From: Alphaproteobacteria bacterium
GTDB taxonomy: Bacteria; Pseudomonadota; Alphaproteobacteria; Elsterales; Elsteraceae
Reading direction: 5' to 3'
Assembly (NCBI GenBank): GCA_013298565.1
Contig: JAAFIC010000021.1
Location: 1-41,269 of the forward strand
DNA: 41,269 nucleotides
In this document: positions 12,646-14,042 of the stretch, piece after piece
Layout of the letters: every line of letters starts with the position of its first letter
Numbering within the stretch: position 1 is the stretch's first letter
Notes under the pieces: model-generated
What the model saw: the letters and a program-made list of their open reading frames with translations, nothing else
Told to the model about the DNA's origin: nothing
Databases searched by the model: none
Position numbers and translations under genes: made by a program

Positions 12646-13182
12646 CTAACGCGCGCGGCAGTCCAGCAGGATAATATCGAAGACCGGATGCTCCAGCGGG
12701 TGCAGCGCCGGGGAGGAGGCAAACATCCAGCCGGAGAAAATCACGCGGTCGCCCCCCGCGACGAAGGGATCACTGGGTACAGCGGTGGCCTTTTGCGGCG
12801 CGGTCGATTGCGCGGGATGATCAATGATCCGCAAAAACGCCGCGCTCTCCGGCGGCTCTTCCGGGGGGCGCTTGATGCAAGCATCTATATTGACGGTAAG
12901 GCTGCCGAAGGTAGCCACCTCACCAACCGGAATGTTGAGTTTGGAGACGCGCGCCGTTACCTTATCCAGCCCTTGCAACACGGCCACGGGCTTTGCGGGC
13001 GGCGGGGTTGGTTGTGGCAGAGGGTGCGGGGCAGGCGACTGGACTGGCGACTGGGCGACTGGCGGGCGCGGCGCAGCTTGTTGGGCGAGCGTCGCACCCG
13101 AGACTAGCACTAAACCCGTCAGCGTTAAAAAAAGACCGGGCGTTAAAAAAAGACCGGGCGTCAAAAAAAGACCGGGCCTCAC
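12646..13182 (-). CDS. DUF2155 domain-containing exported protein
   Basis: A 178-residue protein with a signal peptide ending near GATLAQQ, a proline/glutamine-rich linker (about 36-65) and a C-terminal DUF2155 domain with VTARVSKLNIPVGE, ACIKRPPEEPPESAAF and the signature SGWMFASSPALHPLEHPVFD. Function is unknown; the family is alphaproteobacterial and typically follows ndufA12 and mlaD as here. No ATG is available, so the start is the GTG at 13182, which overlaps the mlaD stop as GTGA. The first codons are a triplicated 18-bp unit encoding PGLFLT three times, so the signal peptide is lengthened by repeat expansion. Probably periplasmic. Confidence 0.88.
   Translation of the reverse strand: MRPGLFLTPGLFLTPGLFLTLTGLVLVSGATLAQQAAPRPPVAQSPVQSPAPHPLPQPTPPPAKPVAVLQGLDKVTARVSKLNIPVGEVATFGSLTVNIDACIKRPPEEPPESAAFLRIIDHPAQSTAPQKATAVPSDPFVAGGDRVIFSGWMFASSPALHPLEHPVFDIILLDCRAR
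13123..13176 (-). repeat. Three tandem 18-bp units inside the DUF2155 signal peptide
   Basis: Plus-strand units 13123-13140 and 13141-13158 are identical (CGTTAAAAAAAGACCGGG); unit 13159-13176 differs by one base (T to C). Each contains a run of seven A and encodes six residues, so copy changes keep the reading frame. Confidence 0.95.
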
Positions 13183-13655
13183 GGTTGGGGTGCGCCCGCT
13201 TTCGATTTATCGTCGCTGGCGGAGAACAGGAATTTGCCGATCATCTGCATGAAATCCGCCGAAGATTTAGTGAATTTTATCGCCTCGCCCGCCGTTAGAT
13301 CACGGTCGGCATTGCCGGGGTTGATGTTCAGATAGCGGCCCCCCAGCAGCCCTTCGGCAGCGATTTCCGCCACGGTATCTTCGGGGAGCTTCACATCTGA
13401 CCGCAAAGCAAAGCGCACTTGCGCGAAAAAAGTGGCCGGATCGAGGGTAATGGCCGTGACGGAGCCAACTTTAATGCCGCTCACGCGCACATCGGTGCCA
13501 ATAGCCAAGCCATCCGCCCGGTCAAACCGTGCGGACAGCTCATAAGCACCGTGTGTTCCCCGAATCGAGGTCGTGGAATAGGCGTACCAGCCGAACGCCA
13601 GGGCGACGAGAAGAACGAAAGCCCCAACCAAGGTTTCCACGACATTCCGCTGCAT
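13179..13655 (-). CDS. mlaD: MlaD-family lipid transport substrate-binding protein
   Basis: A 158-residue MCE-domain protein. One N-terminal membrane helix (about residues 6-26) anchors it in the inner membrane, and the MCE domain (about 36-115) shows ARFDRADGLAIGTDVRVSGI and GLLGGRYLNINPG. MlaD hexamers pass phospholipids between the inner-membrane MlaFEDB transporter and periplasmic carriers. The permease and ATPase genes are not adjacent, so they must be elsewhere if the system is complete. It lies between ndufA12 and the DUF2155 gene and overlaps the latter by 4 bases. Confidence 0.93.
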   Translation of the reverse strand: MQRNVVETLVGAFVLLVALAFGWYAYSTTSIRGTHGAYELSARFDRADGLAIGTDVRVSGIKVGSVTAITLDPATFFAQVRFALRSDVKLPEDTVAEIAAEGLLGGRYLNINPGNADRDLTAGEAIKFTKSSADFMQMIGKFLFSASDDKSKAGAPQP

Positions 13656-13685: not shown

Positions 13686-14042
13686 TTAGTCTTCCGGCGT
13701 CCAGGCTTCGTAATCGCCGGTCGCCTTATCGCGACGATTACCGGCCAGCGCGTGACCCGGCGGGCGATAGGCAAGCTCCGTCCCCGTAAGGTTGGGCAGA
13801 TGCGGCTTTTGCCAGGGGCGGACGGGTGCGTTCTTCAACGGCACGTCATCGGTCGTTTTATGCAGCCAGCGGTGCCACTGCGGCGGCACTTTCGAGGCTT
13901 CGGGTTCGCCCCTGTAGAGCACCCAGCGCTTCGCATCGCGCACCGACGCCACTTTTTTCTCGCGATAATAGCGGTTGCCGAATTCGTCTTCGCCGACCAA
14001 TTCACCGTTCCGCCACGTATAAAGCCGAGTGCCGAGCGACAT
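13686..14042 (-). CDS. NADH:ubiquinone oxidoreductase NDUFA12-family subunit
   Basis: A 118-residue homologue of the mitochondrial complex I accessory subunit NDUFA12 (B17.2), found in alphaproteobacteria. Typical segments are GTRLYTWRNGELVGEDEFGN, YYREKK, RWVLYRGEPEASKVPPQWH RWLH (with one short break for length) and the late YRPPGH. It is thought to stabilise the peripheral arm of complex I at the membrane; it has no catalytic residues. The other nuo genes are not nearby, which is usual for this subunit. The mlaD gene starts 30 bases downstream. Confidence 0.95.
   Translation of the reverse strand: MSLGTRLYTWRNGELVGEDEFGNRYYREKKVASVRDAKRWVLYRGEPEASKVPPQWHRWLHKTTDDVPLKNAPVRPWQKPHLPNLTGTELAYRPPGHALAGNRRDKATGDYEAWTPED

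Follow-up and report, generated by a model that had tools for sequence, protein, structure and literature searches.

In-frame VNTRs in the pe/ppe genes of Mycobacterium tuberculosis represent intragenic tandem repeats, i.e. coding minisatellites (PMC12817950), and in Neisseria, phase variation through homopolymers or simple repeats has been documented close to the 5' end of coding sequences (PMC5320596). The tandem array described here, located in a 41,269-nucleotide stretch of DNA (the window), resembles the pe/ppe VNTRs in its short coding units, its origin by slippage and the frame safety conferred by a period divisible by three; in contrast to these, which form a surface-exposed repeat domain, it is situated in a putative signal peptide and is known from one genome of the species. 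In common with the Neisseria tracts, it lies in the 5' part of a coding region, where indels cause frameshifts and loss of the product; its homopolymer runs, however, do not exceed T7, the 18-bp unit as such preserves the frame, and the case is known from sequence alone. In the human PCSK9 signal peptide, with its in-frame leucine-repeat length alleles, hydrophobic codons likewise vary in copy number; its repeat differs in consisting of single codons, in belonging to a eukaryotic gene and in being a known population polymorphism. For tandem repeats in bacterial signal peptides, the titles and abstracts listed by literature searches contained no close precedent, which is no proof of absence.

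The PGLFLT array and its gene

Positions 13123-13176 of the window consist of three 18-bp units, arranged head to tail and distinguished by a single substitution (Table 1). This 54-bp array encodes PGLFLT three times on the minus strand, two codons past the start of a DUF2155 gene: the gene reads GTG AGG, followed by CCCGGTCTTTTTTTGACG, CCCGGTCTTTTTTTAACG and CCCGGTCTTTTTTTAACG and then by CTGACGGGT; the one base that distinguishes the units (TTG versus TTA) is synonymous (Leu). Tandem Repeats Finder delimited the array at 13122-13177 (period 18, 3.1 copies, 97% matches) with a score of 105, compared to a best score of 79 among 100 shuffled versions of the window with dinucleotides preserved; with three near-identical head-to-tail units (at least three being taken as the minimum) and a score beyond chance, it constitutes a minisatellite. 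A T7 run (A7 on the plus strand) is exact in each of the three units; apart from these, the window contains just one further A7/T7 run. The sequence-only reading had described an in-frame triplication of 18 bp at this place, with an A7 run in every unit and PGLFLT encoded three times in the signal peptide of a DUF2155 protein; sequence, ORF list and Tandem Repeats Finder concur with it on the coordinates, the ORF list and the PF09923 match on the protein, and the array indeed falls into a signal-peptide-like N-terminus.

Table 1. Features of the DUF2155 locus (positions refer to the window)
Feature	Position	Strand	Basis
NDUFA12 gene, upstream, same apparent operon	13686..14042	-	PF05071
mlaD, stop overlapping the DUF2155 start (GTGA, 4 bp)	13179..13655	-	PF02470; TIGR04430 above cut-off
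DUF2155 gene, 178 codons, GTG start at 13182	12646..13182	-	ORF list; PF09923
Inferred signal peptide VRPGLFLTPGLFLTPGLFLTLTGLVLVSGATLA, cleavage probably before QQ	13084..13182	-	Inference from sequence and relatives
Repeat unit 1 (CCCGGTCTTTTTTTGACG, PGLFLT), ancestral-like TTG unit	13159..13176	-	Sequence; Tandem Repeats Finder
Repeat unit 2 (CCCGGTCTTTTTTTAACG, PGLFLT)	13141..13158	-	Sequence; Tandem Repeats Finder
Repeat unit 3 (CCCGGTCTTTTTTTAACG, PGLFLT)	13123..13140	-	Sequence; Tandem Repeats Finder

The encoded protein belongs to the DUF2155 family by the Pfam gathering score (PF09923: E 9.9e-28; 96.6 bits versus a cut-off of 27; residues 67-175, model positions 1-89 of 89). Its cysteines C102 and C175 are invariant in nine aligned relatives; they would suit an exported protein and may be joined by a disulfide. 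No resemblance of DUF2155 to solved structures was detected by sequence (best E 0.16). The overlap of the GTG start with the mlaD stop is kept in Elstera litoralis and in a third Elstera genome (G001). The position of NDUFA12 upstream of a single-domain MCE gene is a known gene order in Alphaproteobacteria (PMC5561183), and in Thioclava NDUFA12, mlaD and DUF2155 form one operon, of which mlaD and DUF2155 are non-essential by Tn-seq (PMC9226611). Plus-strand ORFs with KKRPG or KKDRA repeats (12824-13252 and 12993-13298) were considered as the actual gene and rejected: the conserved, Pfam-supported gene is that of the minus strand, and the absence of these repeats from relatives argues against a real plus-strand gene.

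Copy number among Elstera genomes and origin of the array

The source genome is placed in the same genus as E. litoralis, and the window thus comes from a freshwater Elstera species (Rhodospirillaceae). This species is not E. litoralis itself: between the two, mlaD shows a DNA identity of 84%, which falls to 59% when third codon positions are taken alone. At the same place and with the same start codon, E. litoralis reads GTGATGCTGCGCTCTGCTTTGGTTCTGACGGGC; the gene is divided over two contigs in that assembly, with the start complete on one of them (GTGATGCTGCGCTCTGCTTTGGTTCTGACGGGCCTGATG...). From GTG to CTG ACG GG, E. litoralis has eight codons, equal codon for codon to a one-unit allele of the window, including TTG at the position of the unit-1 TTG. 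The third Elstera genome reads MKPLLMAVPLLLLAGAVVAQQ and has a short signal. The 18-bp array was found in neither of the two at the matching gene start. Copy number thus varies between lineages when one genome per species is compared (three units in the window, one-unit length without a repeat in E. litoralis, none in G001), and the window lineage gained two units (36 bp, 12 residues), because E. litoralis matches the one-unit form and G001 is short and lacks the array. The single difference in 54 bases, set against the third-position identity in mlaD, indicates that the array either is young relative to the split from E. litoralis or has been kept uniform by slippage. The earlier proposal of recent slippage is supported by this absence from both other Elstera genomes and by the colinearity of E. 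litoralis with the one-unit version; the result named as its refutation, identical triplication throughout the related strains and species, was not obtained.

The contig break that splits the DUF2155 gene of E. litoralis (L022:1 and the L103 end) follows within a few bases of a G7 run among the signal-peptide codons; across this break the contigs match up, lacking roughly four bases.

We consider it quite probable that the array is a young coding minisatellite produced by replication slippage, with export retained and a near-neutral change in length. According to this model, a single ancestral CCCGGTCTTTTTTTGACG in the signal-peptide codons would have been tandemly duplicated; one distal copy would then have changed from TTG to TTA and been duplicated again, resulting in three units. 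This order of duplications may be regarded as the simplest history. Each step would add 18 bp, i.e. the six codons of PGLFLT, so that the reading frame would be preserved. The extra units lie between the positively charged Met-Arg N-terminus and the hydrophobic core GLFLTLTGLVLV; the longer signal would be tolerated as a near-neutral change with Sec export intact.

Tandem arrays across the source genome

The repeat survey of the source genome (G000; 3.02 Mb, 126 contigs) read 1.89 Mb (about 63%) as stretches. Within this sample, 48 non-redundant arrays with a period of 10-30 and at least 2.5 copies were present, and 12 arrays of this period range scored at least 75. Half of these strong arrays have periods divisible by three and lie inside ORFs (27, 15, 15, 18 and 15, in addition to the window array with 18); five of the other six (periods 16, 25, 16, 17 and 14) overlap an ORF end or the edge of a gene start, and the sixth (L165), likewise with a period not divisible by three, lies inside an uncurated, putative ORF. 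None of the 12 except the window array lies at the very start of a gene. As gene-interior arrays have periods divisible by three and most others are found at gene ends or outside genes, periods and positions fit a pattern of random slippage with selection against frameshifts. Two of the 12 strong arrays contain A7 in their unit versus 0.03 expected (Poisson P 4e-4, a value that rests on two arrays), which suggests, at this small number, that A-runs favor such duplications, as expected if A-runs aid strand mispairing.

An origin from a dispersed or mobile repeat was rejected, the unit occurring nowhere else in the genome at up to two mismatches and with one match only at three mismatches. Membership in a common family of A7 arrays was considered in view of a second A7GAC array in the genome and of many A7 arrays in a related genus; a shared motif is not established, because the arrays of the related genus (G006) adjoin palindromic intergenic repeats and because GAC follows A7 outside the two arrays at about the chance frequency of 1/64 (of 272 A7 runs in total, 12 are followed by GAC, and the two arrays account for about 8 of these).

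The second array with an A7GAC core (G000:C38:35070-35168, i.e. L157:15070-15168) consists of 6.2 copies of AAAAAAAGACTTCGTA and begins at the stop codon of an ORF judged by eye to be similar to EamA-type transporters; it was not found in G001 or G002. G006, which belongs to the same family but another genus, contains dozens of arrays (e.g. L184, L179, L201, L205) with units like AAAAAAAGGGAGCGTC or AAAAAAAGAGCGTC; the adjoining palindromic repeats end in CATTACCCGCCG, and the arrays appear to have expanded within a family of dispersed repeats. In a further genus of the family, a long A7-A8/G array with AAAAAAAAG repeated is present (G005:C252:12846-12979). An array with a 66-bp period (L129:11754-12051; G000:C100, contig end; consensus GTCGCTCCCCCTGCGGGAGCGTGGATCGAAAC) has the appearance of a CRISPR array truncated where the contig stops.

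The putative export signal and alternative readings

Compared with Sec-type signals, the N-terminus exhibits Met-Arg (one Arg only), the core GLFLTLTGLVLV, ATLA before QQ and an unusually long uncharged segment. Taken by a heuristic rule to follow the final charged residue and to run up to the probable site of cleavage, this segment comprises 27 residues with three units and 15 in a one-unit version; among 77 DUF2155 relatives its median is 15 residues (5-95% range 10-21, maximum 26), so that one unit equals the family median and three units exceed every relative. Among 80 relatives, no N-terminal tandem repeats beyond short, weak two-copy ones were found. The extra units would act mostly as a spacer of moderate hydrophobicity, interrupted by Pro and Gly. 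Since the most hydrophobic 12-residue core GLFLTLTGLVLV, beside the cleavage region, is identical for one to four units, Sec export most likely still works. The segment length beyond the range of the relatives nevertheless counts against a near-neutral change, and some functional effect of the three-unit length is possible.

One such effect would be selection for the longer segment: the 31 residues between Arg2 and the mature start at QQ could delay or block cleavage, part of the protein thereby remaining anchored in the inner membrane beside MlaD. The heuristic segment length, past every relative with three units, agrees with this, as does the best 19-residue window, which is somewhat more hydrophobic with at least two units (Kyte-Doolittle sum 34.9 versus 31.9); however, this window is unchanged from two to three units, its apparent insertion energy stays positive (about +1.7 kcal/mol on a residue scale), each unit contains Pro, Gly and Thr, and the neighborhood of the cleavage site is unaltered, so that selected anchoring appears quite unlikely. 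A regulatory reading of the array is possible in another form, namely as a tunable export signal, in which slippage between one, two, three or more PGLFLT units would grade the periplasmic delivery of the MlaD operon partner in a frame-safe manner; we regard this as very unlikely, and the earlier suggestion that copy number may tune secretion found no support, the genome containing a dozen comparable arrays, most of them without a plausible switch role.

A contingency locus would combine unit slippage, tuning the export signal, with T7 indels that reversibly switch the DUF2155 protein off. By translation, loss of one base in any T7 leads to an immediate stop (CTT TTT TAA or TGA), and gain of one base to a 73-residue, mostly nonsense product; a single-base indel would in consequence truncate or scramble the protein, whichever T7 run it hit. 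That every such indel kills the product, that three T7 runs triple the target, that three units require at least two duplications and that the segment is longer than in all relatives compared are all in line with phase variation. On the other hand, T7 is shorter than the tracts usual in phase-variable genes and below the length expected of hypermutable tracts, T7 runs are numerous in the genome and some runs of T8-T9 occur as well, comparable arrays occur elsewhere at gene ends or interiors, and the DUF2155 protein is not known as a surface antigen. A phase-variable locus is therefore unlikely; the arithmetic behind the earlier suggestion that slippage in the run could switch the gene off is correct, while the role as a switch is unsupported.

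A true copy number different from the assembled one is likewise very unlikely. Exact tandem duplications of 127 bp, in two copies each, occur twice in the 126-contig assembly; as this length is typical for assembler k-mers, the assembly may hold some false duplications. The array, by contrast, would fit at 54 bp within a normal read and does not match a k-mer in length; a substitution distinguishes its units, and the frame is kept. The two duplications themselves (L131:7217-7470 and L215:17487-17740; G000:C1 and C83) may be assembly artefacts, 127 being a common assembler k-mer length.

The array is a coding minisatellite, probably of ordinary slippage origin and unusual for its location in a putative signal peptide. 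It provides a clean natural case of how an export signal can grow through slippage in steps of entire repeat units; the growth is confined to one lineage, and a relative of one-unit length allows comparison; if copy number altered export, it would represent a simple, frame-safe means of varying an envelope protein.
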